From NCBI GenBank assembly GCA_025934485.1, contig JAICXX010000035.1, positions 1 through 40,887 of the forward strand: DNA of 40,887 bases. Reading direction: 5' to 3'. Every line of letters begins with the position of its first letter. Within the stretch, counting starts at the first letter, position 1. The stretch comes from Chitinophagaceae bacterium. Lineage in GTDB: Bacteria > Bacteroidota > Bacteroidia > Chitinophagales > Chitinophagaceae. The notes beneath the pieces are model-generated. The model did no database searches. It was not told the DNA's origin and saw nothing but the letters and a program-made list of their open reading frames with translations. Made by a program: the position numbers and the translations under genes. This document shows positions 4,485 to 34,587 of the stretch, in pieces.

Positions 4485-5229
4485 AGACGAGCCGTTGACG
4501 GCGAGAGACCTGGAGTCCTGCATCCGGGCGGCGGAGCCTGCCGCGAAGATCGTGGCAGTCCTGGGGTCGGCAGCCGAGGCGACAGCATTCTTCCGGGAGA
4601 ATGCCTTGCCCGACCTTATCTTTAGCGACATCCAGCTGGGTGATGGGCTTAGTTTTTCCATCTTCGCCGCCTTTGAACAGAGCGTTCCGGTGATCTTTTG
4701 TACGGCCTATGATGCGTATGCGCTGGATGCGTTCAAGGCGGCGGGCATCGATTATATTTTAAAACCTTTCTCGGCCAGGAACATCGCAGCGGCGCTGGCG
4801 AAATACCAGCGTCTGACCGGCAAGACAGCGACCCCTGGTTCAGCCGCGGCCACGCTCATGGATATGGCGGCTTTATTTGGCCCACACGCTTCGCGCCGGA
4901 GCATATTGGTTTATCATAAAGAGAAGATCGTGCCGGTGAATGTGGGCGATATCGCTTTCTTTTATCTCAAGGCCGATGCGGTGCTGTTGGTGACGTTTGC
5001 CAAACAGGCCTATACGGTCCATAAGACCCTCGAGGAGATCGAAAAGATCGTGGGGTCGGACTTTTATCGCGCCAACCGGCAATGTCTCGTAAATCGCGAG
5101 GCGATCCGTGATGTTTCGCAGGATGCGGGAAGGCGGCTGCTGGTTAACCTGCTGGTCCCCTGCGAGGAGAAGGTCACGGTGGGACGGGCGAAGGCGAGTC
5201 ATTTTTTAGAATGGCTGGCCGGTCATTGA
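4465..5229 (+). CDS. LytTR-family response regulator
   Basis: Two-domain DNA-binding response regulator of 254 residues. The receiver domain (1-about 120) has acidic residues EDE near the N-terminus, the phospho-acceptor Asp55 in LIFSDIQLGDG, Thr in FCTAYDAYA and Lys in DYILKPF. The LytTR domain (about 150-252) includes DFYRANRQCLVNREAI, a typical LytTR signature. It starts within the kinase gene and should receive phosphate from it. Target promoters are not evident from the sequence; the GH2 gene itself is the obvious candidate because it lies first in the same overlapping cluster. Confidence 0.94.
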   Translation: MNIVIIEDEPLTARDLESCIRAAEPAAKIVAVLGSAAEATAFFRENALPDLIFSDIQLGDGLSFSIFAAFEQSVPVIFCTAYDAYALDAFKAAGIDYILKPFSARNIAAALAKYQRLTGKTATPGSAAATLMDMAALFGPHASRRSILVYHKEKIVPVNVGDIAFFYLKADAVLLVTFAKQAYTVHKTLEEIEKIVGSDFYRANRQCLVNREAIRDVSQDAGRRLLVNLLVPCEEKVTVGRAKASHFLEWLAGH

Positions 5230-7294: not shown

Positions 7295-7318
7295 ATGCCA
7301 AGATTGTTTACTAATTAG
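7295..7318 (+). promoter_or_regulatory. shared upstream motif, site A
   Basis: A 24-base element beginning ATGCCAAGATTGTTTACT, matching 18 of 24 bases of site C. It lies 61 bases before the lyase-GH88 start and in the divergent gap with GH27. It is the most diverged of the four copies and is followed by GCCAACTTGG. Confidence 0.45.
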
Positions 7319-7355
7319 CCAACTTGGGGTAGACCGGTTTTCCGGATATTTGAGG

Positions 7356-9722
7356 ATGCAAAAAACATTGGTTTTAACGATCGGTTTGTTCCTGAGCATT
7401 AGCACGTGGGCGCAGGAATTCCGGCCGGACGTCGTTAGTACATTACGGGCATCGGTGATGGCCGAGGCCGCGTGGGCTATGAAACAGAAACCGGTGACCG
7501 TGACGGCGTCGCATTCGGACCGCAGTGCAGGAGGCCGGCATGATTTCTTTTCCGAGGCCGACTATTACTGGCCAAACCCCGCTTCGCCCGACAGCCCTTA
7601 TATCAACAAAGACGGTCAGTCCAATCCCAATAATTTCGTTGCGCACCGGCTGGCGATGATCCGGTTAAGCAGGGTGGTCGGCGCATTAGGGTCGGCATGG
7701 GTGCTGACGCATGACGACCGGTATGTACGGCAGGCGCTGGATCATTGCCGGGCATGGTTTGTCGACACGGCCACGATGATGAATCCCAATTTGGAATATG
7801 GGCAGGCCATCAAGGGACGCGCCACGGGGCGGAGCTATGGGATCATCGACACCATTCAGCTCATGGAGGTGGTGATCGGGCTGGAGGCCATGGAAGGGTC
7901 GAAGGCCATGGATGCGGCGTTGCTGGAAAAGATAAAGGCATGGTTCGAACGTTATCTGCATTGGCTCACGACGCATCCGTATGGAATAACGGAAATGAAT
8001 GCCCTGAACAATCATAGTACCTGCTGGGCGATGCAGGTGGCGGCATTCGCACGGTTCACCGGCGATCACATGCTGATGGACTTCTGCAAGACGCGGTATA
8101 AAACGGTCCTGCTCCCGCGGCAGATGGCGCCGGACGGCAGTTTTCCCCTGGAGATCAGACGCACTAAGCCTTATGGTTATTCGCTTTTCAATCTCGATGC
8201 AATGGCGACTATCTGCCAATTGCTGTCGACTCCCGGCGATGATCTCTGGCATTACCAGGCGGAAAGCGGCCAGTCGATCCAAAAAGGGATCGAATACCTG
8301 TATCCGTATATCGCCAACAAAAACAAATGGCCTTATCCGCATGATATCATGATCTGGGACCAGTGGCCGGTGGCGCAGCCCGCGTTGCTTTTCGGCGCGG
8401 TTGCCTATGGCAATAAGGAATGGCTGGAGACCTGGAAGCGGCTCGATCATGACCCGCAGAATCCCGAGGTCATCCGCAATCTTCCGGTTCGGCATCCGTT
8501 GATCTGGCTAACCGGAGCCGGACATCGGCACGGGGTGGCCTCGGGGTTGCCAGACTCGCCGCCGGTGGACGTCCCGAAGGTGATCGCGGATGCGGAGCGG
8601 CAGACGGAGGTGATGCTCGATTCGGTGAAGGCGATCCGGGAGGCGGACGGGGCGCCGGGCGGAATGGGTGTCGGTGACGGGATGACGCCGTTTAGTCCGC
8701 GGACCATCGGGAATGGCCGGCTAAAGCTCGTGGCTTCGCGGGACTGGACCAGCGGATATTTCCCGGGGGTCTTATGGATGTTGTACAAGTATACCGGTAA
8801 GCCGGAATGGAAACGGGAGGCCGCGCTGTTCACTGCGCCGGAGCAGCGCGAGAGTGTCAACGGAACCTCGCACGATGTCGGCTTAAAGGTCTTCAGCAGC
8901 TTTGGCGCGGGTTATCGTATCACGCGGGATACCGCTTATCGGCGCACCATCGTTACGGCGGCGCGAACGCTGGCTACGCGGTTCAATCCAAAAATAGGCG
9001 TCATCCGAAGCTGGGATCATCATCGCGAGCTCTGGCAATACCCAGTGATCATCGACAATATGATGAACCTCGAACTGCTGTTTGAGGCGACCCGGCTTAC
9101 AGGCGACAGCTCATTCTATCGAATCGCGGTGAGCCATGCCAATACGACCATGAAGAATCACTTCCGCGCCGATTACAGCTCGTATCATGTAGTCGATTAC
9201 GATACGGTCACTGGACAGGTGCGGCGAAGGATGACTTGGCAGGGCTATGCCGATTCCAGCGCGTGGGCGCGGGGGCAGGCCTGGGGGCTTTATGGGTATA
9301 CGGTCTGTTACCGGTATACGCACGACCCCGCTTACCTGCGGCAGGCGGAACATATCGCCGCGTTCATCCTGCATCATCCGCGATTGCCCGCGGATATGGT
9401 GCCGTATTGGGATTTCGATGCGCCGGCGATCCCAAAGGAGCCGCGCGATGCTTCGGCAGCGGCGGTGATCGCATCGGGTCTTTATGAATTGAGCGGATAT
9501 AGCACCAATAGCTCCGCCTATCGAAAGGCCGCGGACCAAATAGTAAAAAGCCTTACCGACCATTACCGGGCGCCGGTAGGGGAGGATAAAGGATTTCTCC
9601 TGTTGCACAGCACGGGTACCAAACCGACGAATCTCGAGGTCGATGAGCCGCTGAGCTATGCGGACTATTACTATATGGAGGCCTTGTTAAGGAGTACCTG
9701 GGTCCCGGAGATGCCAAAATAA
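7356..9722 (+). CDS. bifunctional alginate-lyase-fold polysaccharide lyase + GH88 unsaturated glucuronyl hydrolase
   Basis: Single 788-residue secreted protein (signal about 1-20, ending STWAQ). The N-terminal half (about 22-395) matches the alginate_lyase family (PL5/PL38-like): FSEADYYWPNP and INKDGQSNP near the start, Asn218-Asn219-His220 in ALNNHS, and tyrosines 273/275 in TKPYGYSLFNL as likely catalytic residues. The C-terminal half (about 400-788) is GH88-like: DWTSGYFPG, Asp507 in HDVGL and Asp567 in IIDNMMN. These match the paired catalytic Asp of unsaturated glucuronyl hydrolases in motif and spacing. The lyase would create a 4,5-unsaturated uronate end that the second domain removes. 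ATG 7356 is preferred over a TTG two codons upstream. Whether the backbone is glucuronan, alginate-like or another polyuronide is not resolved. Confidence 0.85.
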   Translation: MQKTLVLTIGLFLSISTWAQEFRPDVVSTLRASVMAEAAWAMKQKPVTVTASHSDRSAGGRHDFFSEADYYWPNPASPDSPYINKDGQSNPNNFVAHRLAMIRLSRVVGALGSAWVLTHDDRYVRQALDHCRAWFVDTATMMNPNLEYGQAIKGRATGRSYGIIDTIQLMEVVIGLEAMEGSKAMDAALLEKIKAWFERYLHWLTTHPYGITEMNALNNHSTCWAMQVAAFARFTGDHMLMDFCKTRYKTVLLPRQMAPDGSFPLEIRRTKPYGYSLFNLDAMATICQLLSTPGDDLWHYQAESGQSIQKGIEYLYPYIANKNKWPYPHDIMIWDQWPVAQPALLFGAVAYGNKEWLETWKRLDHDPQNPEVIRNLPVRHPLIWLTGAGHRHGVASGLPDSPPVDVPKVIADAERQTEVMLDSVKAIREADGAPGGMGVGDGMTPFSPRTIGNGRLKLVASRDWTSGYFPGVLWMLYKYTGKPEWKREAALFTAPEQRESVNGTSHDVGLKVFSSFGAGYRITRDTAYRRTIVTAARTLATRFNPKIGVIRSWDHHRELWQYPVIIDNMMNLELLFEATRLTGDSSFYRIAVSHANTTMKNHFRADYSSYHVVDYDTVTGQVRRRMTWQGYADSSAWARGQAWGLYGYTVCYRYTHDPAYLRQAEHIAAFILHHPRLPADMVPYWDFDAPAIPKEPRDASAAAVIASGLYELSGYSTNSSAYRKAADQIVKSLTDHYRAPVGEDKGFLLLHSTGTKPTNLEVDEPLSYADYYYMEALLRSTWVPEMPK

Positions 9723-9734
9723 TTGAATAAATGG
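9711..9734 (+). promoter_or_regulatory. shared upstream motif, site B
   Basis: Element beginning ATGCCAAAATAATTGAAT, 23 of 24 bases identical to site C. It begins inside the last codons of the lyase-GH88 gene, so CCA AAA TAA of that gene is part of the motif. It lies 139 bases before the GH29 start. Confidence 0.6.
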
Positions 9735-9849
9735 TGAGTTTGCGTGGTCCGCGGTTGGAGAATAAGTAGTTAGTTGCAGGAAATAAAGCGACATATGACA
9801 CGAGGCGATAGCCGACTGCATAACTACATTGAAAAGCAAATAATTCGTT

Positions 9850-11226
9850 ATGAAAAAACTATTGCTGGTATTTTCTTTTATAGCGGGAAGCGTCTGTGTG
9901 ATGGCGCAGCCGCTGATGATCGACATGCGGAAAGGCGACACGCTGACGCGCGACGAACGCATGGCCTGGTGGCGGGAAGCGCGGTTTGGCCTGTTTATCC
10001 ATTGGGGTGTTTATGCGGTATTGGGTGGCGAATACGACGGTCGCCAGATCAATAAGGCCGGCGAGTGGATCATGAACCGGGGAAAAATACCCGTGGCCGA
10101 ATATCGTAAAGTGGCGCGGCAGTTCAATCCGGTAAAGTACGATCCCGAGGCCTGGGTGAAGATGGCAAAGGATGCGGGTATGAAATATATCGTCATCACG
10201 GCCAAACATCACGATGGGTTTGCATTGTTCGAGAGTAAGGCAAGTAAATGGAATGTCGTGGACGCGACGCCGTATGGCAAGGATCTGTTGAAGCCGCTGG
10301 CGGCGGCCTGCAAAAAATATGGCATCAGGCTGGGCTTTTATTACTCCCAGGCGCAGGATTGGAACAACCCCGGCGGTGCCGTATCCCGAAAGGTGACGTC
10401 CGAGGGCTGGCCGAATCCAGACAGCGCCGCTATCGACGCCTATACGGCTGCGCACAATGGCCACTGGGACCCGGCGCAGACCACGGATTCGATGGGCGGC
10501 TATATCGACAAGGTGGCGGTGCCGCAGGTACGGGAGCTGCTCACTCACTATGGCGATGTCGCCGTCTTGTGGTGGGACACGCCCACGGGCATGACCGACG
10601 AATATGCCGAGAAGCTGCATAGCCTGCTGGCCCTGCAGCCGGCGATCATCACCAATGACCGGCTCAAGCGCCCCGATTTTCCCGGCGACTATAAGACACC
10701 CGAGCAAAAGATCCCCAATCCAGGTGAGCTCAATGGCGATTGGGAGACCTGTATGACGATGAACGGCACCTGGGGTTTTAAAAAGAACGATCACCACTGG
10801 AAGACGCCGGCGACGCTGATCCATAACCTCGTCGATATCGCTTCTAAAGGCGGCAATTATCTGTTGAACGTGGGACCTACGCCGGAAGGGGAGATCCCGC
10901 AGCCCAGCATCGACGCACTCAAGGTCATCGGCAGCTGGATGAAGGTCAATGGGGAAGCGATCTATGGCACCAAGGGAAGCCCCATGGGGCCGCTGCCCTG
11001 GGGCCGTTGTACGACCAAGGGGTCGACCTGCTATTTCACCGTTTTCGACTGGCCGGCCGACGGACGTCTGTTGGTGCCAGCGATGCAGGGTGAAGTGAGA
11101 ACGGCGAAATTGCTGGCCGGGGGCACAACCCTGCAAACCGAGAAGACGTTAGACGGATTGGTTATACATGTGCCCGCGACGGCACCCGATGCGCTGGCGA
11201 CGGTGATCAAAGTCGACATGAAATAA
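9850..11226 (+). CDS. GH29 alpha-L-fucosidase
   Basis: Secreted exo-fucosidase of 458 residues with a Sec signal (about 1-20, ending VMAQ). The catalytic barrel carries GLFIHWGVYA, YIVITAKHHDGFALF and GIRLGFYYSQ, all typical of the family. The probable nucleophile is Asp243 in VLWWDTPTG; most relatives have a W-F-D-G form here, so the local sequence is slightly atypical. No carbohydrate-binding module follows beyond the short C-terminal beta domain (about 360-458). The gene stands alone: motif site B lies upstream and a strong terminator downstream. Linkage preference (alpha-1,2/3/4) cannot be read from sequence. Confidence 0.93.
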   Translation: MKKLLLVFSFIAGSVCVMAQPLMIDMRKGDTLTRDERMAWWREARFGLFIHWGVYAVLGGEYDGRQINKAGEWIMNRGKIPVAEYRKVARQFNPVKYDPEAWVKMAKDAGMKYIVITAKHHDGFALFESKASKWNVVDATPYGKDLLKPLAAACKKYGIRLGFYYSQAQDWNNPGGAVSRKVTSEGWPNPDSAAIDAYTAAHNGHWDPAQTTDSMGGYIDKVAVPQVRELLTHYGDVAVLWWDTPTGMTDEYAEKLHSLLALQPAIITNDRLKRPDFPGDYKTPEQKIPNPGELNGDWETCMTMNGTWGFKKNDHHWKTPATLIHNLVDIASKGGNYLLNVGPTPEGEIPQPSIDALKVIGSWMKVNGEAIYGTKGSPMGPLPWGRCTTKGSTCYFTVFDWPADGRLLVPAMQGEVRTAKLLAGGTTLQTEKTLDGLVIHVPATAPDALATVIKVDMK

Positions 11227-11251
11227 ATTCAATAGGGCAAGTATTATGTAG

Positions 11252-11283
11252 GCGCCCCCACGGAAGTGGGGGCGCAGTTTTTT
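11252..11283 (+). terminator. strong rho-independent terminator after GH29
   Basis: GCGCCCCCAC (11252-11261) pairs perfectly with GTGGGGGCGC (11266-11275) around a GGAA tetraloop. AGTTTTTT follows. It separates the fucosidase from the SusC/SusD transcript. Confidence 0.93.
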
Positions 11284-11290
11284 ATAGTGC

Positions 11291-11314
11291 ATGCCAAAAT
11301 AGTTGAATAAATGG
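11291..11314 (+). promoter_or_regulatory. shared upstream motif, site C
   Basis: Element beginning ATGCCAAAATAGTTGAAT, immediately after the GH29 terminator and 108 bases before the first susC start. Its ends carry TGCCA and TGGCA as a loose inverted repeat. Together with site B it defines the motif. Confidence 0.65.
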
Positions 11315-11398
11315 CAATTTGGATGAAAGCGGCATTGCTAAAATATGGCCAAGTTGCAGATAGAAAGAGATTGCTTTTTTCCCAGTTAAACTGCTCAT

Positions 11399-14300
11399 AT
11401 GATATGTCTCCGACGCAGCTATATGCTGTTCTGCTGGCTGCTATGCACTATGCCGATCCTGGCACAGCCCCCTGCCGCAACTATTCATGGCACGATCTCG
11501 TCTGCCGGTGGCGAACCGCTGGCGGGTGCTTCAATCGTTATCAAAGGGACATCCCGCGGCACTACGACGGGCCCGAATGGTTCATTCCAACTGATGGCGC
11601 CGGTAAACAGTACGCTTGTGATCTCGCATACGGGATATCTTGTTAAAGAAATAAAGATCAGATCAGCTGATAACTATACCCTTACAATCAGTCTGGAAGA
11701 GAATAAGAACGATCTTGACCAGGTGATCGTGGTAGGGTACGGTACGCGGCGCAAGAGCGAGGTCACGGGGGCTATAGCTTCGGTGAGTGAAAAATCCATT
11801 CAGGATGTACCGTCCGCTAACCTGAGCCAGGCTTTACAGGGACAGGCCGCCGGCATCGATATCCAGAAATCGAAGGGGAACGCGCATCCCGGGGAGAGCC
11901 CTTCCATATTGATCCGCGGAACCAGGAGTGTTAAAGCGGGTAACAGTCCGCTCTTCGTCGTCGACGGTATTCCCTTTGAAGGCAGTATCGACGATATCGC
12001 TCAGGACGATGTTGCGGCGGTGGAGGTTCTCAAAGATGCCTCTTCCACTGCTATCTATGGATCGCGGGGCGCCAATGGAGTGATCCTCGTGACGACCAAA
12101 CGGGGGCGGGACGGCAAGCCCAGGGTTGCTTATAGCGGGTATGCGGGTTTTACCAAGTCGGCAGGAGAATATCCCATGATGAATGGCCCGGAATATTTCG
12201 AGCTGAAGAAATGGGCTACGTATATCGGTAATAAAGGGGTGTACACCGGTCCTGATGATCCCAAGCTGGTTAACGGCTCGCTGATCCAGCTGGCGCCGGA
12301 AGAAAGGGAAGGCATCTTCCTTGGTCGCAGCACGGACTGGCAGAAGCTGGTCTACAGGACGGGGATCAGTACCGATCACCAGCTTAGCGTATCGGGGGGT
12401 ACGGACATCACGCAATACTCGGTAGGCGGCGGCTATTACCAGGAAACGGGGGTATATCCCGGCCAAAGCTTTACACGCTATTCCTTACGATTGAACGTAG
12501 ATCAGCGAATAGGCAATTACGTGAAGGTGGGCGTGAGCTCGCTGAACACCTATACGGTCACCAAAGGGGAAAGCATCGATCCGCTCCCAGAGGCGCTGAG
12601 AGCCAGTCCGCTGGTGCTGCCCTATGACTCTACAGGGAAGCTCATCAACAATTTCCTGCCGGGGAGCGCCAACCAGGTATGGAATCCGCTGGCCGATTTT
12701 CTGCCGGGTGCAACGGTGGAGAAACGCGACCGGCTGGGCACCTTCAACTCGATGTATGTGGAGGTCAGCCCGATCAAAGGGCTCAAATACCGCTTTAATG
12801 GCGGAGCCGAACTGCGGAGCGATATCTATGGCCATTTTTATGGCGCCAATACCACCGAGAATCTGGGGGTGAGCTCGACGGCGGAGAACGCCACTACGGA
12901 AACGACGAGCTATACGCTGGAGAATATGCTGGTCTATGACAAGACCATCGCGAAATTGCACAAGATCAATTTTACCGCGCTTTACAGCTATCAAAAATAT
13001 GGCTCATCGAATACGACGTTCGACTACACCAATTTACTTTCGGACCAGGCGCAGTTCTATAACCCCGCTTTGGGGGCAAATTTCCAGGCTACCAATAGTA
13101 CGACGAACAACAACAACGAGCTGCTCAACTGGGTGCTGATCTCCTATATGGCGCGGTTGAATTATACGTTCAACGACAAATACCTGCTGACGCTCACGAT
13201 GCGTTCCGACGGCTCGTCCGTGCTGGCGCCGGGGGACAAATATCATCTCTTCCCCAGCGCGGCGGCGGCGTGGAATATCATAAAAGAACCTTTTTTGCAA
13301 CACAGGGGGGCGATCTCGAACCTAAGATTGCGGGCGAGCTACGGGGAGGTAGGGAATCCTGCCATCACCCCTTATCAGACCCTGGGCTCGCTGACGCAGC
13401 AGACCTATAACTATGGAGGGACGACGACTACAGGTCTTTATCCTTATTCCGCCCCCAATCCCAATTTGAACTGGGAGTATACGGCCACAGCCAATGTGGG
13501 TGTCGATTTCGGTTTTTGGCAAAACCGGTTGTCGGGGACTTTAGAGCTCTATCATTCCTATACGCGGGATATGATCATGCCGGTGACGCTGCCGCCCACC
13601 TCGGGCATCCCGGCGCAGATACTCACCAATATCGGCAAGAGCGAGAATAAAGGTATCGAGGTGCATATTGCCGCGGATATCCTGAGGGCGCGGAACAGCC
13701 ATGCTTTTGCGTGGTCGATGGATGTCAACTTCTATATCGACCGGGGAGAGATCACACGGCTATTGCCGAGCATCACCACGACGCTGGATGGCAAGCCGGC
13801 GGATATCGCCAACAAGTGGTTTGTAGGCCGCCCCATAGGCTCTTATTACGACTATATCCGCACGGGCATCTGGCAGGCCACCTCGCAGGACTCGGCCGCG
13901 GCAAAGGCGTTGGGACAAACGATTACGGGGACCAAGTCGGTGATCGGTCAGGCCAGGATACTGGACCGGAACCACAATGGGGTGATCGATGCTGGTGACG
14001 AAGGTATCGTCGGAACGCCGCAGCCCAGGTGGGAGGGCGGTACCACGCAACGATTTGCCTACCGGAATTTCGATCTTACAGTGGTGGCGGCCGTGCGCAT
14101 CGGCGGGATGATCTCTTCCGATCTTTTTGGAGCCGGTTTCACCAGCACGATGCAGGGCAATTACAACAATGTCAATGTACACTACTGGACGACGGTGAAT
14201 CCCACGAACCGATGGTCAGCAGCGAATTCGGCGCAGACCAATCCACCTTATCACAGCACCTTTGGTTATTTCGACGGCAGCTTCTTAAAGATCAGGAGCA

Positions 14301-14509
14301 TGACGTTGGGTTATAGCGTTCCGGGTTCGCTGTTCCGGGGGACGGGATTCAAGACGATGCGGCTCTATGCGACGGCGAAGGATCCTTTTATCCTTTTCTC
14401 CCCATACCGGAGCACTTATCATGGGGTCGACCCCGAATCGGCGGGTACGCTCAATGTGAATACGCCCGCGGTTTGGTCGATGTTGTTTGGACTGAATATC
14501 GGTTTTTAA
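11399..14509 (+). CDS. SusC/RagA-type TonB-dependent outer-membrane transporter (first of tandem pairs)
   Basis: Outer-membrane importer of oligosaccharides, 1036 residues. Signal about 1-23 (CTMPILAQ). A carboxypeptidase-regulatory-like beta domain follows (about 28-105; TISSAGGEPLAGASIVIKG), then a SusC signature QVIVVGYGTRRKSEVTGAI and a plug domain (about 115-230; FVVDGIPFEG, SSTAIYGSRGANGVILVTTK). The rest is a 22-strand-type barrel ending in LNIGF with a terminal aromatic residue, as expected for outer-membrane assembly. It works with the SusD lipoprotein 18 bases downstream, which caps the barrel. Motif site C lies in its 5' region. Confidence 0.96.
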   Translation: MICLRRSYMLFCWLLCTMPILAQPPAATIHGTISSAGGEPLAGASIVIKGTSRGTTTGPNGSFQLMAPVNSTLVISHTGYLVKEIKIRSADNYTLTISLEENKNDLDQVIVVGYGTRRKSEVTGAIASVSEKSIQDVPSANLSQALQGQAAGIDIQKSKGNAHPGESPSILIRGTRSVKAGNSPLFVVDGIPFEGSIDDIAQDDVAAVEVLKDASSTAIYGSRGANGVILVTTKRGRDGKPRVAYSGYAGFTKSAGEYPMMNGPEYFELKKWATYIGNKGVYTGPDDPKLVNGSLIQLAPEEREGIFLGRSTDWQKLVYRTGISTDHQLSVSGGTDITQYSVGGGYYQETGVYPGQSFTRYSLRLNVDQRIGNYVKVGVSSLNTYTVTKGESIDPLPEALRASPLVLPYDSTGKLINNFLPGSANQVWNPLADFLPGATVEKRDRLGTFNSMYVEVSPIKGLKYRFNGGAELRSDIYGHFYGANTTENLGVSSTAENATTETTSYTLENMLVYDKTIAKLHKINFTALYSYQKYGSSNTTFDYTNLLSDQAQFYNPALGANFQATNSTTNNNNELLNWVLISYMARLNYTFNDKYLLTLTMRSDGSSVLAPGDKYHLFPSAAAAWNIIKEPFLQHRGAISNLRLRASYGEVGNPAITPYQTLGSLTQQTYNYGGTTTTGLYPYSAPNPNLNWEYTATANVGVDFGFWQNRLSGTLELYHSYTRDMIMPVTLPPTSGIPAQILTNIGKSENKGIEVHIAADILRARNSHAFAWSMDVNFYIDRGEITRLLPSITTTLDGKPADIANKWFVGRPIGSYYDYIRTGIWQATSQDSAAAKALGQTITGTKSVIGQARILDRNHNGVIDAGDEGIVGTPQPRWEGGTTQRFAYRNFDLTVVAAVRIGGMISSDLFGAGFTSTMQGNYNNVNVHYWTTVNPTNRWSAANSAQTNPPYHSTFGYFDGSFLKIRSMTLGYSVPGSLFRGTGFKTMRLYATAKDPFILFSPYRSTYHGVDPESAGTLNVNTPAVWSMLFGLNIGF

Positions 14510-14527
14510 TGAATAAACTTTTTGAAA

Positions 14528-16246
14528 ATGCAGACGAAATACAGACTACTGTTATTGTTGGCGGGCACGATGGCGACAGCGTGTAACAAGCAGCTTACCG
14601 AGCATCCGCAATCGCAGGTGACGCCGGCTTTTTTTTCTACGGCGCAGGGGTTCCAAAGCGGACTGGACGCGGCCTATGGCGGAATGCGGAATCTGTGGGG
14701 AACGGAAAATCTTTTCACGCTGTTGGTGCCGGGGACCGATGAATTCATCACCGGCAACGACGGCACGGGGAATAACATCAACTATTACAGCAGCGGGTAT
14801 ACGCCTTCCGACAGCCATCTCTCGGGTATATGGACTCCTTGCTATACGTTTATCAACGATTGTAACGGACTTATCGACTATGGTCCCAAGATCACCTCGC
14901 TGGATTCCGCCACGCGGCTGGAGATGATAGCTGAGGCGAAGTTTTTAAGAGCCAACTACTATTTCGTACTGGTGCAATTCTGGGGACCGGTAACACTCAA
15001 TGCGCATTTTCAGGCAACGCCTACGACAGCGGCGCAGCGGTCACCGATAGGCGCCGTCTATGAGCTCATCGTACAGGATCTCAAGGATGCCATTGCGGGA
15101 CTGCCGCCGAGTCCGGTACAGGGCAGCGTACCACCGGGGAAGGCAACAGCTGCTGCTGCACGACATCTTCTCGCAAAGGTGTATCTCACGCGTGCCAGCT
15201 CTTCCGCCGCACAGCCCGACGACTATCAGAATGCTTATAACACGGCTTCGGGTTTGATCAGCAGCAGTGCGAGCCTGGGTCTGGCGCTGCAACAGGATTT
15301 CGGGAGTGTATTCCAGCAGGGGAACGAAAGCAACCCGGAGGTGTTATGGACCGTTCAGCACACCACGGCGCTCGCCTACAATGGGTCGCCGACACAAAAC
15401 AATAGCGGAACGGACAATGTGCTGTTGCATCTGTGGGTGCCGAAATATGAGACCTATGTGCCCGGGATGCAGCGGGACATCGCGGACGGACGGCCGTATA
15501 TCCGGGTGGTGCCGACGCATTGGCTTACAGATACAGTTTTTGCGGACAAGACCGATGATACCCGTTACAACAAGACGTTTCAAACGGTGTGGATCTGCAA
15601 CTATGCCACGAGTATTCCCAAGTGGCCGAATCCTGTTCCGGCCGGCGTCGACCCTTCGCTGGCGGGTAAGCCCAAATTTTCGTTGGGCGATACGGCCTGC
15701 TATATGCCGGGCTATGATGTCTCCAACGCGACTATCGCCGCGACGCGGTATCTGCTGATGCCGCCGCGGACCTACAATATCCAGATGGGGCCGGCGCTGC
15801 GCAAATATTTTGATACGGAACGGCCGGGTGAGAATGCCCCCAGTGTGCGGCCGGTAATCGTGTGGACGTTGAGCGAAACGTATCTCATCGCGGCGGAGGC
15901 GGCGTATCATCTCAACGATCTTGCGGATGCGGTGAGCTTTATCAATACCATCCGGGAACGGGCGGCCTATCCTACGGGGAACAAGGCGGCGATGGATATC
16001 ACGCAGGCGCAGCTCAGCCAGGATTTTATCCTCGACGAACGGTCGCGGGAGCTATGCGGGCAAATGGTGCGGTGGTGGGACCTGGTGCGGACGCATCAGC
16101 TTTTGACGCGGGTGCAGGCGCACAACCCGGACGGACGGTCTAATATAGTACCCAGGGATACACTGCGGCCGATCCCACAGAGCCAGATCAATGCCGTCAC
16201 CAGCGGTCCTGCCTATGGACCGATGAGCGATCCGCTGTGGAACTAG
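14528..16246 (+). CDS. SusD/RagB-type glycan-binding surface lipoprotein
   Basis: Surface lipoprotein of 572 residues that binds glycan and forms a lid on the SusC barrel. ATG 14528 is preferred to a TTG two codons upstream; it gives a lipobox ending in Cys19 (GTMATAC). SusD hallmarks include an N-terminal region with FFSTAQGFQSGLDAAYGGM, the TPR-like AEAKFLRANYYFVLVQFWG, and a C-terminal RagB part with ILDERSRELCGQMVRWWDLVRT. The gap from the susC stop is 18 bases and the gap to the next susC is 36, so it is part of a long transcript. Confidence 0.95.
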   Translation: MQTKYRLLLLLAGTMATACNKQLTEHPQSQVTPAFFSTAQGFQSGLDAAYGGMRNLWGTENLFTLLVPGTDEFITGNDGTGNNINYYSSGYTPSDSHLSGIWTPCYTFINDCNGLIDYGPKITSLDSATRLEMIAEAKFLRANYYFVLVQFWGPVTLNAHFQATPTTAAQRSPIGAVYELIVQDLKDAIAGLPPSPVQGSVPPGKATAAAARHLLAKVYLTRASSSAAQPDDYQNAYNTASGLISSSASLGLALQQDFGSVFQQGNESNPEVLWTVQHTTALAYNGSPTQNNSGTDNVLLHLWVPKYETYVPGMQRDIADGRPYIRVVPTHWLTDTVFADKTDDTRYNKTFQTVWICNYATSIPKWPNPVPAGVDPSLAGKPKFSLGDTACYMPGYDVSNATIAATRYLLMPPRTYNIQMGPALRKYFDTERPGENAPSVRPVIVWTLSETYLIAAEAAYHLNDLADAVSFINTIRERAAYPTGNKAAMDITQAQLSQDFILDERSRELCGQMVRWWDLVRTHQLLTRVQAHNPDGRSNIVPRDTLRPIPQSQINAVTSGPAYGPMSDPLWN

Positions 16247-16282
16247 GCGGCATTTCTTTAGCTAAACCAAAACAGCTGACAT

Positions 16283-19200
16283 ATGAAAAGGATGCTAATG
16301 CAGGCGGTGGCGCTGTTGCTCGTTGCTACCGTGCATGCACAGACGACTAGGATCAAGATCATAGGATACGTGATCGATCCCAAAGGCAGCCCGCTTGCCG
16401 GCGTGAGTGTTACTGTCAAAGGAACGGAGAGCGGGACCCTCTCGGACAGCAGCGGCCGGTTCGAGATCCGCGTACATGGCCCCGGATCGAGGCTGGTGTT
16501 TTCACTCGTGAGCTACGAGACGAAGGAGGAGACCGTAGGGAAACGAATGAAGCTGGAGGTCGTTCTCAACGAGGCTAGCAGCAGCATGAATGACGTGGTC
16601 GTCATCGGCTATGGAACGCAGAGAAAACGGGACCTCACCGGCGCCATCACCACGATCTCCTCGAAACAGCTGGAAGAGCGGCATACCAGCAGCCTCGGTG
16701 ATGCGTTGCAGGGGCTGGCCGCGGGGGTGCTGGTCACCACGGCGGCGGAGCCGGGAGCCCAACCGACCATTCAGATCAGGGGATATTCCACTTTCTCCAG
16801 CGCCGGCAATACGCCGTTGTATGTGATCGACGGGATCCTTTCGGACAACATGAGCTGGGTCAACCCAGACGATGTCCAGTCGGTGGAGATACTCAAAGAC
16901 GCGGCGTCGGCGGCGATCTATGGGTCCCGTTCGGCCAATGGCGTCATCATCATCACGACTAAACGAGGAGTAGAAGGGAAGCCCAGGATAGGAGTGCAGT
17001 ATCTGCATGTATCGGGGGAGCTTGCCCATAAGCTGCCACAGGCCAACTCGAAGGAGGTGCGGCTATACCGCAACGAGCAGGGCAGCTCGGGGGTAAGCAC
17101 CGACTCGCTCAATCCCAGCTATAATGCCGATAACGATTATCAATCCGTGCTGACGCGGATCGCCGCGCGCGACCAGGTAGACTTCAGCGCCAGCGGCGCC
17201 AGCAAGAACACCAATTTCTACACCAGTATCCGCGCGCTCGACGACCAGGGCCTGATTTATAACAGCTATGCCAAATCGCTGTTCTTCCGGACCAATATCG
17301 AATTCTCTCCGTCCTCCCGTTTCCGGTATTTCGGGCGGATGCAATTCGGGTATACTACGGGGAATGTTATCGACGAAGGGAACACGATCTTTCAGGCGTT
17401 TCAGCGTCCCCCCAACTATGCTTTGTACAATCCCGACGGATCGCTTACCGGCTATATCAGCGGGCGACGAAATCCGCTTACGGTTGTACTGGACCAGGTC
17501 AACCTGAACCAAAATTACAACGGCTCGCTTTTCAACCAGGTCGATTTTACCATTGTCCCCGCGCTCAAGCTCACCGCCAATGCCGTCGCTACCTATACAG
17601 AAACGAGGAACCAGCAGTTCCTGCCCAAGATCCTCAGCTCCAACAACCCGCTGACCAATAGCGGCAGCGAAAGCTTCTCCCGTGTCATCGACTGGCAGGC
17701 CCAGAGCTATCTCAATTATTCCAGGACCTTTGGCGGGGATCACCTGGTCACCTTGATGGCCGGGACCAGCGCTGAGTCGTCGCAGACCAATGGCGACAAT
17801 GAATCGGCTGTGAACTACGTCAACGAGCAGGTGTTGACCCTCAATTCGGGGACCATCGTACCCAATGGCACGACGACCACCGCGACGGCGGATTCCCGGG
17901 CCTCGTTGTTTGGCCGGGCCACCTATGGGTATAAGGGCCGGTATCTTTTTGCCACGACGATACGGCGGGATGGCTCTTCGCGTTTCGGTCCCGATAACCG
18001 ATGGGGGGATTTTCTAAGTGCCTCGGCGGCGTGGCGGTTCAGCGACGAACATTTCATGCATTGGTCGGCGGGTTTCCTGGATGACGCGAAGTTCCGTTTC
18101 AGTTATGGGCAAACGGGCAATGAAAGTATCGGTGACTATACCGCGCAGACGACGTACAATTTCGGAAACTATTATTACAATGGTATCTCGGGGATCGCGC
18201 CGAGCACCACACTCGGCAATCCTACCCTGCAATGGGAAGCGACGACACAGCAGGATGCCGGTCTCGATCTGAGCTTCTTCAGGTCCCGGCTGCTCATCGT
18301 GGCGGATGTCTATATCAAGAAGACCAACAACCTGCTCACCCAGAGCCCGCTGCCCGCGGAGACGGGGTTCAGTAACTATGAGGTCAACTATGGAAGCATC
18401 CGTAATCGCGGCTTCGAGCTGTCGATCATCGGGAGGCCAATACTCAGGAGGGACTTCGACTGGTCCATCACCTATAACCTTAGCGTGCAGAAGGGTGTCG
18501 TCACCCAGCTCAATGCCGGGCTGCCGGCTATCCAGGGCAATTCCGCCGATGCCGCGGGCAATGCGGCCTGGCTATTGCAGGCGGGACAGCCGCTGGGCAA
18601 TTTCTATGGCTGGAGACAGCTGAGGGTCTATCCATATGATCTGTCGAATGCTTATAATGCGCAGTGGCAGCCCCTGTCACCCGATTTCGATCAGGCTGGG
18701 AATTTTTCGGGCTATAATTTCCAGGGCAAGGCCTATACCGGCCCCGTCCATAGCCTGTACGGAAAAGGGGTGAAGCTCAAAGGCGGCGATGTCGAATACC
18801 AGAATCTCAACGGGGACAGCGTGATCGACAACAACGACCGGCAGATCCTCGGGAATGCGCAGCCAAAATTCTTTTTTGCCGTGATGAATACCATGCGGTA
18901 CAAGAAGTTCTCCTTGTCGTTCACCATCAACACGCAATGGGGCGATAAGGTCTATAACAATGCGGCGCAGACGCTTGATAATTATGCGACTTCCAATATC
19001 ATTCCGCAGCCGGATGTGATCCTGCATATGTGGCGGCATCAAGGCGATGTCACGCAGGTGCCGGCCTATCTCAAGACGAGTGTGGGTGATATCCGGATGA
19101 GCAATCGATTCCTGGAAGACGGCTCGTTTATCCGGCTGGCCTATGCGCAGCTGAACTATACATTTCCCATCCAGGCGGCTCACAAGATCTTTGCACAGGC

Positions 19201-19360
19201 TGCCAACGCCTATATCTATGGCAGCAACCTGCTGATGTGGACTAACTATAGCTGGTATGACCCGGAGCTGATCTCGACCAATCCGCTCCAGATGGGGCAG
19301 GATAATGGCAGCTATCCCCGCAGACGGGAATTAGGAATCGGATTGAATATAACCTTCTAA
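16283..19360 (+). CDS. SusC/RagA-type TonB-dependent outer-membrane transporter (second of tandem pairs)
   Basis: Second SusC-like importer, 1025 residues, with a signal peptide (about 1-20, ending TVHAQ). Regulatory-like beta domain about 25-100 (YVIDPKGSPLAGVSVTVKG), SusC signature DVVVIGYGTQRKRDLTGAI, plug domain with LYVIDGILSDN and AIYGSRSANGVIIITTKRG, then a barrel ending GIGLNITF. It differs clearly in sequence from the first copy, so the two pairs probably accept different oligosaccharides rather than being a recent duplication. It starts 36 bases after the preceding susD and ends 10 bases before its own susD partner. Confidence 0.96.
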   Translation: MKRMLMQAVALLLVATVHAQTTRIKIIGYVIDPKGSPLAGVSVTVKGTESGTLSDSSGRFEIRVHGPGSRLVFSLVSYETKEETVGKRMKLEVVLNEASSSMNDVVVIGYGTQRKRDLTGAITTISSKQLEERHTSSLGDALQGLAAGVLVTTAAEPGAQPTIQIRGYSTFSSAGNTPLYVIDGILSDNMSWVNPDDVQSVEILKDAASAAIYGSRSANGVIIITTKRGVEGKPRIGVQYLHVSGELAHKLPQANSKEVRLYRNEQGSSGVSTDSLNPSYNADNDYQSVLTRIAARDQVDFSASGASKNTNFYTSIRALDDQGLIYNSYAKSLFFRTNIEFSPSSRFRYFGRMQFGYTTGNVIDEGNTIFQAFQRPPNYALYNPDGSLTGYISGRRNPLTVVLDQVNLNQNYNGSLFNQVDFTIVPALKLTANAVATYTETRNQQFLPKILSSNNPLTNSGSESFSRVIDWQAQSYLNYSRTFGGDHLVTLMAGTSAESSQTNGDNESAVNYVNEQVLTLNSGTIVPNGTTTTATADSRASLFGRATYGYKGRYLFATTIRRDGSSRFGPDNRWGDFLSASAAWRFSDEHFMHWSAGFLDDAKFRFSYGQTGNESIGDYTAQTTYNFGNYYYNGISGIAPSTTLGNPTLQWEATTQQDAGLDLSFFRSRLLIVADVYIKKTNNLLTQSPLPAETGFSNYEVNYGSIRNRGFELSIIGRPILRRDFDWSITYNLSVQKGVVTQLNAGLPAIQGNSADAAGNAAWLLQAGQPLGNFYGWRQLRVYPYDLSNAYNAQWQPLSPDFDQAGNFSGYNFQGKAYTGPVHSLYGKGVKLKGGDVEYQNLNGDSVIDNNDRQILGNAQPKFFFAVMNTMRYKKFSLSFTINTQWGDKVYNNAAQTLDNYATSNIIPQPDVILHMWRHQGDVTQVPAYLKTSVGDIRMSNRFLEDGSFIRLAYAQLNYTFPIQAAHKIFAQAANAYIYGSNLLMWTNYSWYDPELISTNPLQMGQDNGSYPRRRELGIGLNITF

Positions 19361-19370
19361 CCACTCCAAT

Positions 19371-20807
19371 ATGGGACGTCAATTTGTTTTCGTGATGCTG
19401 CTGGCTATGACCGCCGTCACCGGATGTAAGAAATTTCTCACAGAGAAGCCGCAGCAGCAGATCACTGCCGGCAGTTTCTGGAAGACCAACGATGATATCG
19501 TAGCGGGGATTGCAGCCATGTACAATGGGGTACAGCAGCAATGCAGCTACAATTACTTTGCCTATGGAGATGGCCGAACGGACAATTTCTGGGTCTCGCA
19601 ATACGGAAATCTCGCGTATTCGATCAATGGGTTGAGCAATGCCACCAATGGGACGGACTGGGCGCCCATCTACACGACGATCGAGCGGGCGAATGACCTG
19701 TTGATGCACGTGCCCATCATCGCCGCGTCGCAGGAGGGGCAGAGCATCGGCGCCAAGGCCAGCAACAACTATCTGGCACAGGCCTATGGGGTACGCGCGT
19801 TTTGTTATTTCACCTTGCTGCGCATCTTCGGCGGGGCGCCGGTGTGGCGGGTTCCATATGACAGCGTAGGACAGCAAAAATTTATAGCCCGGTCTTCGGC
19901 TGAGTACTTGATGGATAGCCTGGTTTTACCCGACCTGCTCAATGCCGCCAACCTGGCCGATACTACCCAAAACACGGTGTGGTATGTGAACGTGGGGGGA
20001 ATCCGCGCGATGTTGATGGACGCGTATATGTGGAAGCACGATTATCCGGATGCGATCTACTGGTATAGCCGGCTTACGGGGACGAACCGGTATAAACTCG
20101 AACCGACCGCTACCTGGAAGAACCTGTTCATCGCGCCGCAGAGCTCGGCGGAGAGTATCTGGAGTCTCAACTGGGATTGGACCGTCAACGGCGGCGCCAG
20201 CATCTCCGGCGAGATAGGAGCCGGGAATACCAACAGCCAGTGGTGGATCTCGGATGTCATCTGGAGCTATTTCACCAGTGCGGCCAATGCCAAAGACATC
20301 CGGGGACCGCAGTCGATCGACTTCAAGGCAACCAACCACGACAAGGTCAATAAGTTCTATCCGGTGAACCTGAATGCCCAGGGCGTTCAGATCTATCCCG
20401 CGAATAACCAGGCGAATGTCTATTTCGCACTTTACCGGCTGGCCGATCTCCTATTGTTGCGCGCCGAGGCGGCCAATTGTACCTATGATACGGCGACGGC
20501 GATCAACCTGCTCAATGCCATCCATGTTCGGGCGGGTCTTCCGGCCTACACTACGGCGACGCTGGTGGATTCCACCACCATCAGCAATGCGTTATTAGCC
20601 GAAAGACAATGGGAGTTCTTTGCCGAAGGAAAAAGATGGTATGACCTGGTACGCAATGGCGTCGTGAGCTCGGTCCTGGACCCCATCATGCTGAAGAGAT
20701 ATCCGACGGCGCAGACCTTTGCCTCCGATCCCCGCAAGATCCTGTGGCCGGTAAACGCCAATGATCTCAATGCCAACCCGGCGCTTGTTCAAAACCCTCC
20801 TTACTGA
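19371..20807 (+). CDS. SusD/RagB-type glycan-binding surface lipoprotein (second)
   Basis: Partner lipoprotein of the preceding SusC, 478 residues. Lipobox ends in Cys19 (TAVTGC) and is followed by KKFLTEKPQQQIT, a form very common in SusD proteins. Later hallmarks: AQAYGVRAFCYFTLLRIFGGAPV in the TPR region and LLAERQWEFFAEGKRWYDLVRN near the C-terminus. It is shorter than the first SusD. The next lipoprotein gene begins 17 bases after the stop. Confidence 0.95.
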   Translation: MGRQFVFVMLLAMTAVTGCKKFLTEKPQQQITAGSFWKTNDDIVAGIAAMYNGVQQQCSYNYFAYGDGRTDNFWVSQYGNLAYSINGLSNATNGTDWAPIYTTIERANDLLMHVPIIAASQEGQSIGAKASNNYLAQAYGVRAFCYFTLLRIFGGAPVWRVPYDSVGQQKFIARSSAEYLMDSLVLPDLLNAANLADTTQNTVWYVNVGGIRAMLMDAYMWKHDYPDAIYWYSRLTGTNRYKLEPTATWKNLFIAPQSSAESIWSLNWDWTVNGGASISGEIGAGNTNSQWWISDVIWSYFTSAANAKDIRGPQSIDFKATNHDKVNKFYPVNLNAQGVQIYPANNQANVYFALYRLADLLLLRAEAANCTYDTATAINLLNAIHVRAGLPAYTTATLVDSTTISNALLAERQWEFFAEGKRWYDLVRNGVVSSVLDPIMLKRYPTAQTFASDPRKILWPVNANDLNANPALVQNPPY

Positions 20808-20824
20808 TCGTCAATTTTTTCAAT

Positions 20825-21523
20825 ATGAAACGTTTTTTGATCTTTATTAGCCTCTTTTTGATTGCTTCCACAGGCTGTAAGAAATTTCTGGGACTTTCGT
20901 TGCAGACCGATGCCTCCCACACCCCCTACCTGTTAAATCCCAATCTCGATATGACGGCCTGGCAATACCTGAAATACCGGAGCGGAGCGGATACCACGAA
21001 TCCGAACTGGCGCACCGATACCGTGTTCAAGCTGATGTATCAGGCCGTGCTGTATTCGGGTATCGATACCAGCGAATACACGAAGCCCAACAGGACATAT
21101 GTTTTCCTGCATAACCTCGCCGTTCAGACCTTAAATGCCACGGTCCCTGTGACCGTAAGCAACAAGTGTTATTGGGGGTACTATCTCGTGGATTCGGTAC
21201 CTGCCACCTCCTGGAGCCAGTATACGCCGGCGCAGGTCAAGGCCTGGCTGCAGTACCTGATCGTGAATGGAGAGTACAATTTCAATAACCTTACCCCCAA
21301 CGCGGTTACCGTCACGACGTTGCTGCCGCAGGGTGCGGATACCCTGAACCCGTCGGGCATCATGGTGCTGGCACGCAATGATGATCCCAGTTCAGGGTCG
21401 ATCACCATCAATAATTTCGTGGGCTCCTATAGCTCCACGACGGTGCGTTCCGGCGGGTATGTAGCCACGAATGGACCGATACAGGTGGTGGGCAATTTAG
21501 TGATCTTTAAACGAACGCAATAA
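20825..21523 (+). CDS. FAS1 (fasciclin)-like surface lipoprotein
   Basis: Lipoprotein of 232 residues, lipobox ending in Cys18 (IASTGC) followed by KKFLGLSLQT. The remainder resembles one FAS1 domain: VFKLMYQAVLYSGIDTSEYT and TYVFLHN correspond to the early FAS1 core, and YVATNGPIQVVGNLVIFKR to the conserved C-terminal part. Its place directly after susD, where SusE/SusF-type surface glycan-binding proteins usually sit, suggests an accessory binding role at the cell surface. That role is inferred from position; the FAS1 match is by eye. It is the last gene of the rightward transcript and converges with the GH105 gene four bases away. Confidence 0.7.
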   Translation: MKRFLIFISLFLIASTGCKKFLGLSLQTDASHTPYLLNPNLDMTAWQYLKYRSGADTTNPNWRTDTVFKLMYQAVLYSGIDTSEYTKPNRTYVFLHNLAVQTLNATVPVTVSNKCYWGYYLVDSVPATSWSQYTPAQVKAWLQYLIVNGEYNFNNLTPNAVTVTTLLPQGADTLNPSGIMVLARNDDPSSGSITINNFVGSYSSTTVRSGGYVATNGPIQVVGNLVIFKRTQ

Positions 21524-21538
21524 GCCCTTAAGGCTTTT
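21522..21538. terminator. weak possible bidirectional terminator between convergent genes
   Basis: AAGCC and GGCTT form a five-pair stem around CTTAA, overlapping the stop codons of both the FAS1-like gene and the GH105 gene. TTTT follows on the plus strand. It is short, so the call is tentative. Confidence 0.3.
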
Positions 21539-22760
21539 GGGCGCCGCGATCGGCGGCGAGCACCATTTCAGTGCCGGCGAGGAGGAAGGGACCGAGCCCA
21601 TGGGTATCGTTGGTCTCGCGGGGCCGGTCATAGTAAAACCGGATGTTCTCTTCGATGTCGGTGCCGATACAGATATCCCGGACCTCGCCGTCGGCGGTGA
21701 CCTCGCGGCTCAGCCCCTGCCAGCCGTTGCGGGCGATGGACAGGTAGCGCGGGTTGATCCAGCCTTTGTTGACGGCGTGGGCGACGGTATAGATGAACAT
21801 GGCGGTCACGGAAGATTCGAGGTAGGAGTCTGGTTTATCGAGGACCTGATGCCACATGCCGGTGGTATCCTGGTAGCGGGAGAAACCTATGATCTGGCGG
21901 AGCAGGAGCTTGCGAAGTTCTTCCCATTTGGGATGGTTGGCGGGAAGGGCGTCAAGCAGGGCACACTGGGCCAGGGCCACCCAGCCGTTGCAGCGGCCCC
22001 AGTGGGCGACACCGTTCGTGTTCTCGTCGTTATAGAAACAGTGGAAGTAGAGACCGGTGGTGCTGTCGTAGATGTAGTGATTGAATGCTTCGACCTGTTT
22101 TATTGCGAAGTCGAAATAGCTGGCGTCGCCGGTGGTCCTGCCCATGCGGGCGAGGAAGGGGACGCTCATATAGAGATCGTCGGCCCAGAGGGTCATACTA
22201 CGCGGGCGGGTACGGGCGAGGGTGCCGTCGGGGAATTTGACCTGTACGTTCCGGATATAGTCGGCTACCCTTTGCAAATAGTCCATGTAAACCGGCTTTT
22301 TATCGAAGGTATAGACGTCGAGCAGCCCTGCGGCCATGGACCCGCAATCGTCGAGGGAGTTGATCTTGAGCACAGGCCGCCATTCTATGGACTTTACGCC
22401 GGCATCGAATTGCTTTTTGAAATAATCGAGATTACTAAAGATGAAATCATAATTCTTCCGTGCATAGTCGGAATACCGCGGTTCGTGCAACACAGCGGCG
22501 GTTTGCATCATGCCCACGGCCAGGACCCCATTGACATATTGCCATTTGTTGTATTTGCTTTCGGCTTTGATATCGGGTGATAGGGCGAGGCCGCTGGTGG
22601 AAGAAAAGGTCTCATTGGTTTTGGTATTGACAAAACGAAAGGAGGTCGTTTGAAGGATATGGTCTGCCACACGCCGCACCAGCGTCGCAGGATCGTCGCC
22701 GGACTGTTGGGCCCTTGCGACGGAAGAAAGGCCTAAGACGAGGATTAAGAATAGCTTCAT
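21528..22760 (-). CDS. GH105-type unsaturated rhamnogalacturonyl/glucuronyl hydrolase
   Basis: Enzyme of 410 residues with a signal peptide (about 1-18, ending ARAQ), so periplasmic or exported. It hydrolyses the 4,5-unsaturated uronic acid left by polysaccharide lyases. The (alpha/alpha)6 barrel carries the GH105 landmarks: DDCGSMAAG (Asp137/138), the catalytic-type WADDLYMSVPFLARMG (Asp194/195), and GRCNGWVALAQ. It complements the GH88 domain of the lyase fusion: GH105 members usually act on rhamnogalacturonan-derived disaccharides. It is transcribed leftward and diverges from the GH97-GH28 fusion across 125 bases that contain motif site D. Confidence 0.9.
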   Translation of the reverse strand: MKLFLILVLGLSSVARAQQSGDDPATLVRRVADHILQTTSFRFVNTKTNETFSSTSGLALSPDIKAESKYNKWQYVNGVLAVGMMQTAAVLHEPRYSDYARKNYDFIFSNLDYFKKQFDAGVKSIEWRPVLKINSLDDCGSMAAGLLDVYTFDKKPVYMDYLQRVADYIRNVQVKFPDGTLARTRPRSMTLWADDLYMSVPFLARMGRTTGDASYFDFAIKQVEAFNHYIYDSTTGLYFHCFYNDENTNGVAHWGRCNGWVALAQCALLDALPANHPKWEELRKLLLRQIIGFSRYQDTTGMWHQVLDKPDSYLESSVTAMFIYTVAHAVNKGWINPRYLSIARNGWQGLSREVTADGEVRDICIGTDIEENIRFYYDRPRETNDTHGLGPFLLAGTEMVLAADRGAQKP

Positions 22761-22813
22761 ATTACATGATTTTGGCCCTAATATTCTTACAAATTTGACA
22801 CATATGGAAAGGT

Positions 22814-22837
22814 ATGCCAGAATAGTTGAATAGATTG
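22814..22837 (+). promoter_or_regulatory. shared upstream motif, site D
   Basis: Element beginning ATGCCAGAATAGTTGAAT, 21 of 24 bases identical to site C, 72 bases before the preferred start of the GH97-GH28 gene. It contains an in-frame TTG (22826) that could be mistaken for the start codon. Confidence 0.6.
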
Positions 22838-22885
22838 CTAATTATGGGAATTGTTCACCCGGAAAATATCCGTCAATTGCAAACT

Positions 22886-26119: not shown

Positions 26120-26139
26120 TCACCATAAAACCTTGCGTT

Positions 26140-34358: not shown

Positions 34359-34447
34359 AATGGCAAGTTTTTTTTAAGTGGGTTGTCGATATTCTGATGC
34401 CAAATTGGAGAAAAGTTTCAGGATAATGTCTTGTGTCTGGGTGCTTT

Positions 34448-34505
34448 ATTTACGGAAACGGTTGCGAAGAAAACACGAAAATTCAACTACAACGTTTTCG
34501 TAAAT
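34448..34505. promoter_or_regulatory. inverted repeat with LacI-like half sites in susC/lacI divergent gap
   Basis: The left arm ATTTACGGAAACGGTTG (34448-34464) matches the reverse complement of the right arm (34490-34505, read ATTTACGAAAACGTTG) with one mismatch and one extra base. Each arm has an AACG core like LacI-family operators. The element lies between the third susC and the LacI regulator and may control both. Confidence 0.5.
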
Positions 34506-34587
34506 AATGCCCGGAGAGGCAGAGGGATTTTGTAATTTTCGGTTTCTGCCGCGAGGGCGGCGACCATTCAAAACATACCGCTTGTCT

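Follow-up and report, generated by a model that had tools for sequence, protein, structure and literature searches.

Which protein would act on a short motif that recurs before four separate sets of glycan genes? The question is raised by a 40,887-nucleotide stretch of DNA from a Chitinophagaceae bacterium (GenBank assembly GCA_025934485.1, contig JAICXX010000035.1, positions 1–40,887, analysed at full length and referred to here as the window), in which an initial annotation had noted four copies of a 24-bp motif, each upstream of a rightward gene, and had proposed them as the operators of an AraC-type protein. Our comparison of related genomes leads us to conclude that the four sites are very probably the landing sites of the AraC-type one-component regulator encoded on the reverse strand at 28877–29782 (AraC_binding and HTH_18 domains). 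For the locus as a whole, we have high confidence, on comparative grounds, in an explanation in which these are operators of a one-component AraC activator that would control a pectin-type glycan regulon.

The window contains one direct-repeat family, with all copies on the forward strand and placed before the lyase–GH88 gene (copy 1, 7295–7323), the GH29 gene (copy 2, 9711–9739, which overlaps the last codons at the 3' end of the preceding lyase–GH88 gene, whose stop is at 9722), the first susC (copy 3, 11291–11319) and the GH97–GH28 gene (copy 4, 22814–22842). Recounting over 24 bases returned the identities to the 11291 copy that had been reported (18, 23 and 21 for the copies at 7295, 9711 and 22814, respectively), and the distances to the start codons, annotated as 61–139 bases, were recovered as 61 (to 7356), 139 (9850), 108 (11399) and 72 (22886), with the starts being signal-peptide-like. 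The core had been given as ATGCCA-A-AT-GTTGAATAA, which is one position too long and finds nothing at up to three mismatches, but with the spacing corrected to ATGCCANAATNGTTGAATAA it picks out the four copies and nothing else in the window at this threshold, where 0.01 matches would be expected, and none of 100 shuffled windows reached four. A scan of the source assembly (6.75 Mb in 381 contigs, 93% complete) found 13 matches at up to three mismatches, four in the window and nine elsewhere, with none for the reversed-pattern control. The three matches with at most one mismatch all lie in the window (the 7295 copy has three mismatches). Chance is thereby excluded both in the window and in the source genome.

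The motif beside AraC orthologues

Of 294 Chitinophagaceae genomes, 189 encode a relative of the AraC protein (E 1e-20 or better). Our locus set comprised the best 30 outside the source genome (62–67% identity in this search and 59–65% in a second comparison; two more, of 63% and 60%, were left out), each taken with some 20 kb of flanking DNA in either direction, or less at contig ends, and 1,112,324 bases altogether. A 24-nucleotide matrix built from the four window copies alone found 28 matches scoring >20 in 20 of the 30 loci and none in the same DNA reversed, and at >16 it found 45 matches in 23 loci compared with five in five reversed loci. The other controls at >16 gave none in ten loci of LacI relatives (52–59%) from genomes without an AraC of at least 60%, three in three of 20 regions drawn at random from these genomes (none of them >18), and seven in five of ten loci encoding AraC paralogues. 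Retraining on the relatives produced 68 matches, 66 of them distinct, in 28 of the 30 loci, and it should be noted that this second matrix had the window copies as its seed. At >16 it found nothing in the LacI control loci or in the random regions, one match in the whole set of reversed orthologue loci and one in that of reversed random regions. When applied to the window that had seeded it, the relatives' matrix scored copies 1–4 at 29.2, 25.5, 32.2 and 38.7 and nothing else above 9.

Most of the 66 sites are intergenic (57, in DNA that is 86% coding) and 52 have the start of a co-oriented open reading frame (ORF) within 400 bases (ORF calls were mechanical and included alternative starts). 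Ten further named loci, six of them from Mucilaginibacter, were also inspected: eight have a site of at least 20 upstream of the AraC match, at a distance of up to about 250 bases, and no site >13 was seen in the other two (L233 and L235).

At the level of whole genomes, an extended pattern of the site was matched in 159 of the 294. All 32 genomes with an AraC of at least 60% had matches (127, reversed control 12), as did 126 of the other 261 (195 matches, reversed control 48), and three or more matches were present in 26 of the 32 compared with 15 of the 261, counts for which a Fisher test overstates the association because orthologous sites are not independent. For four genomes without such an AraC (G282, G247, G199 and G149) 13 matches were listed, including a tandem pair in G247 that scores 24.7, and 12 loci of about 3 kb were examined. 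A tblastn search of these loci (E 1e-15) gave no match to the window genes, and with no relative of a window gene beside them these matches look like chance. Among these apparent counter-examples, ten stretches with matches at 0–2 mismatches were also scored. Five had no site >15, and the others included G095 (sites of 33.0 and 29.2 in 13 kb that contain no relative of a window gene), G055 (one site, 23.8), G289 (one site, 19.2) and G048, which is considered below.

The genes that follow the sites indicate what the regulon may contain. An ORF of at least 100 residues begins within 450 bases downstream of 61 of the 66 sites, and these fall into altronate/galactarate-dehydratase-like (13), GH29 (10), GH97 (6), unassigned (6, a family of about 700 residues), GH36 (6), SusC (4), FucP-like (4), AraC (3) and LacI (2) clusters, with the other seven in singletons or small groups (for clusters that lack a relative in the window, the name comes from one or two members). 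The unassigned family had no Pfam match at E 0.001 over its first 330 residues. In relatives, unlike in the window, sites are often found just upstream of araC, facing away from it and towards an altronate-dehydratase-like or FucP-like gene. These target families suggest that the regulon couples the breakdown of glycans with uptake and with uronate-type catabolism, and they point to a uronic acid or a fucose-like product as the possible ligand. The recurrence of the motif beside AraC orthologues, and before orthologous glycan genes, is what would be expected of the regulon operator that the annotation had proposed.

We also note that the ten loci of AraC paralogues (50–59%; L184–L203) contain variant operators, with 16 matches >16 to the relatives' matrix in eight of them, and these variants offer a chance to map the residues that set specificity. 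The paralogue in the source genome itself (C234, 57%) has no site >15 in 30 kb.

Anatomy of the site and the box downstream

The conserved columns in relatives are 2–30, consisting of ATGCYARAATWGYTGAATR followed by G at column 25 and YAAT at 27–30, and the site is about 29 bp long or more, rather than 24. It is a direct repeat with a period of 21 bp (the best self-match of 26 offsets tried), in which the GCYAA of columns 4–8 recurs at columns 25–29 and the TGAAT of columns 15–19 has a weak echo at columns 37–41, so that the second half-site is weak. The annotation had seen similarity running on towards A-TTTGG: conservation does continue beyond the 24 bases, but as G-n-YAAT (columns 25–30) and not as TTTGG. 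Direct half-sites about 21 bp apart beside a promoter characterise the AraC/XylS family, and this is the arrangement found here for a motif tied to AraC by comparison.

About 31 bp beyond the conserved block, and outside the matrix, there is a second box: of 54 non-redundant sites, 36 have TTTG, TTGC or TTGT beginning at column 64 or 65 and 18 do not, and at 100 other offsets the same words occur 2.4 times on average and at most 8 times. TTTG also begins at column 64 or 65 in all eight sites from the further named loci, two of which have identical operators. The annotation had taken variable distances as a sign of an operator rather than a fixed leader: the distance to the start codon does vary, but that to the promoter-like box is almost constant in two thirds of the non-redundant sites. 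Three of the four window copies are followed by TTGC at the usual place (9711, 11291 and 22814), within the forward-strand boxes TTAGTTGC (9770–9777, columns 61–68), CAAGTTGC (11350–11357) and TCAATTGC (22873–22880, five bases before the ATG at 22886).

The TTTG/TTGC box is probably a –7 element. In Flavobacterium psychrophilum (PMC9723704), the boxes of the sigma-A promoters (TAnnTTTG) and of the SM5 promoters (TAnnTTGY) span –12 to –5, and in this frame the transcripts in the window would start near 9782, 11362 and 22885. The last of these is one base before the ATG at 22886, and such a near-leaderless message would be unusual because leaderless messages make up only 5.5% in F. psychrophilum (same source). 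The TTGC form here is like SM5 in having TTG plus a pyrimidine one base nearer the TA than in TAnnTTTG, but unlike in the SM5 promoters (PMC9723704), the TA is not conserved at the expected place. TAnnTTTG itself is rare near our sites: the 66 flanks, each of 180 bases, contain it three times. At three sites before the unassigned family (L074–L133) and at a GH97 site in G175, TTTAGCA occupies columns 74–80, about one helix turn further on. A separate observation concerns copy 1, where GATATTTG at 7345–7352 lies nine bases closer to the operator than the box of the other copies, and with the start codon at 7356 it would make the lyase–GH88 message nearly leaderless.

The box appears in two positions that differ between gene families. 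TTG is at columns 66–68 in 12 of 13 altronate-dehydratase-like, all four FucP-like and five GH36 sites (the remaining GH36 site has it at 65–67), and at columns 65–67 in eight of ten GH29 sites (one more at 64–66), all four SusC sites and five of six GH97 sites, as it is for the GH29, susC and GH97 copies in the window. The first form is mostly TTTG and the second mostly TTGC. Among the other families, one unassigned site has TTG at 65–67 and five have none, none of the three AraC sites has it, and one LacI site has it at 67–69 and one is without. The sigma-A and SM5 promoters of F. psychrophilum differ by the same shift of one base (PMC9723704). It is conceivable, though rather doubtful, that one AraC regulon uses two promoter forms, through two sigma factors or through one-base phasing, to give different outputs for each part of the pathway. 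The split rests on six gene families and so has slight support at the family level, and with so few families it may reflect common descent; a simple division between surface and cytoplasm is disfavoured because the GH36 start is signal-peptide-like.

The AraC-type regulator and its rivals

The proposed regulator is a 301-residue protein in which the two-helix-turn-helix (HTH) C-terminal domain is matched almost completely by HTH_18 (PF12833; E 3.5e-20, profile positions 1–79 of 80) and the N-terminal cupin-like ligand domain by PF02311 (24.6 bits, cut-off 21.1), with Cupin_2 below its cut-off (24.1 against 27.2) and all NCBIfam matches far below theirs. It matches only AraC-type HTH and cupin-like models, and is therefore not the fusion of sensor, kinase and receiver domains that defines a hybrid two-component system (HTCS). 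The annotation's choice of this protein as the binder agrees with the way the site tracks its orthologues. The sites, their conservation with this regulator and its targets, the 21-bp repeat and a box in most but not all of the sites are observed, whereas we infer that the protein binds there as a dimer and activates transcription instead of repressing it, where transcripts begin, and, from the targets in relatives, that the ligand is a sugar of uronic-acid or fucose type. A dimer of the AraC protein would bind a pair of half-sites in direct orientation (GCYAA-N6-TGAAT) with a period of 21 bp, of which the upstream half-site is strong and the downstream one weak. The bound site would lie at about –71 to –32 from the predicted transcript start and just upstream of the atypical –7 box (TTTG or TTGC). 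A breakdown product of the target glycan would bind the N-terminal domain, and the ligand-bound protein would jointly activate the lyase–GH88, GH29, susCD and GH97–GH28 transcription units.

A second one-component candidate in the window is the LacI-type protein encoded on the forward strand at 34507–35604, which might act at the same sites as a repressor or co-regulator. LacI relatives (47–60%) are present in many AraC loci and somewhere in most AraC genomes, and two LacI genes in relatives are preceded by the motif, but the LacI control loci gave no matches >16 with either matrix, and the motif persists in AraC loci where the stretch covered contains no LacI relative (such as G004, G016, G172, G216 and G045, although these genomes have LacI relatives elsewhere). 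LacI proteins usually bind short palindromes, and the site is instead a direct repeat. We consider LacI very improbable as the protein behind these sites. An inverted repeat with 25-nucleotide arms (80%) at 34436–34517, between the third susC and lacI, is possibly the LacI protein's own site. A search of the window for a distinct LacI operator with its half-site word gave 11 matches, a number that nine of 100 shuffles reach and that is not above chance.

The conserved block might instead be a promoter for a sigma factor, for example of the extracytoplasmic function type, given that its boxes are at fixed spacing and oriented towards the gene. The separate –7-like box further downstream and the way the block tracks one AraC clade make this highly improbable, and no sigma or anti-sigma gene was found among the 26 window ORFs scanned (the orthologue loci were not scanned for one). 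The LytTR response regulator (4465–5229), encoded in the window together with its histidine kinase (pair at 3474–5229, forward strand), is favoured by this proximity and by a GTT in the core that is faintly like LytTR sites, but is extremely unlikely to be the binder when the kinase has a match (31–35%) in just four of the 30 AraC loci and LytTR (26%) in one, the motif-less G185. A dispersed repeat or chance similarity, which could account for the nine further matches at three mismatches in the source genome, can almost be dismissed, since the nine loci around them score no more than 18.2 against 25.5–38.7 for the four copies and the site precedes similar targets in other genera.

Several results weigh against the AraC-type protein as the regulator. 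The operon of the AraC gene in the window has no site >9, and two of the 30 orthologue loci (G185 and G039) have no site >16, with G114 reaching only 16.5. Good sites precede relatives of GH29 (68%) and susC (57%) on contig C255 of G048, and another on its contig C87 scores 38.1, in a genome where the best AraC match is just 40% (the assembly is fragmented and 83% complete). Part of the set of 66 sites may be spurious: a few fall within genes, and the three in the AraC cluster overlap the araC start and lack the box. Copy 1 at 7295 is not followed by the box at the expected distance, and the predicted start of transcription would fall beyond the ATG at 7356. The box is also missing at columns 64–66 in five of the six sites before the unassigned family, three of which have the best operator scores. 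Finally, many of the motif loci also contain a LacI relative, which leaves room for a joint LacI role.

The arrangement proposed for the AraC-type protein is familiar from other systems. AraC, MelR and RhaS combine a ligand domain with a double HTH and bind direct half-sites just upstream of the promoter, as here, although the operator sequence is different, the promoter box is of Bacteroidota type and the targets are those of a polysaccharide utilisation locus (PUL). In a survey of Bacteroides regulators (PMC3878776), in which most of the motif set belongs to HTCS and SusR-like regulators (20 of 31), AraC-type HTCS operators are also direct repeats, with a mean of 21 bp between sites, which precede PUL genes and are bound through an AraC-type DNA-binding domain; unlike these, the regulator here has no kinase or receiver domains. 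SusR-like regulators of PULs also use direct-repeat sites in that source, but with 67 or 77 bp between them, and the proteins belong to a different family. No description of this operator was found in the literature covered (titles and abstract openings, with subscription journals mostly outside the scope). The type of regulator and operator is already familiar, and the gene switch is well supported and not unusual in kind. It provides a testable layout of operator, regulator and promoter for a one-component AraC PUL regulator in environmental Bacteroidota, allows members of the regulon to be predicted in related genera, and may supply an inducible promoter.

The gene cluster and its predicted substrate

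The window encodes GH2, the kinase and LytTR pair, GH27-like, lyase–GH88, GH29, two susC–susD pairs with a lipoprotein-like gene, GH88, GH97–GH28, lyase-type genes, AraC, a third susC–susD pair, LacI and a sulfatase. With susC–susD pairs accompanied by glycoside hydrolases or lyases, it represents a large PUL. The four targets are all on the forward strand. The first is a lyase (PF05426) fused to a GH88-like domain (7356–9722), and the second is a GH29 alpha-L-fucosidase (9850–11226). The third is a susC–susD–susC–susD–lipoprotein-like run (11399–21523) with gaps of 10–36 bases, which is probably one operon. Between the GH29 gene and copy 3 there is an intrinsic-terminator-like hairpin followed by a T run (11252–11285, forward strand), which is consistent with a separate susC promoter.

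The fourth target comprises the GH97–GH28 fusion and the next gene (22886–26997), for which the lyase match is below threshold. The GH28 part of the fusion exceeds the cut-off of the BT4146 rhamnogalacturonidase model, and a pectin-type, rhamnogalacturonan-like substrate is therefore likely. We note that the frame 22826–26119 places GH97 (alpha-galactosidase-like, below cut-off) and the BT4146-like GH28 in one protein, and that tblastn matches to this fused query in relatives cover 0.3–0.6 of it. Elsewhere in the window, the lyase frame at 26992–28944 begins inside the end of the AraC gene on the same strand, and this 68-base overlap suggests either coupled translation or a later true start.

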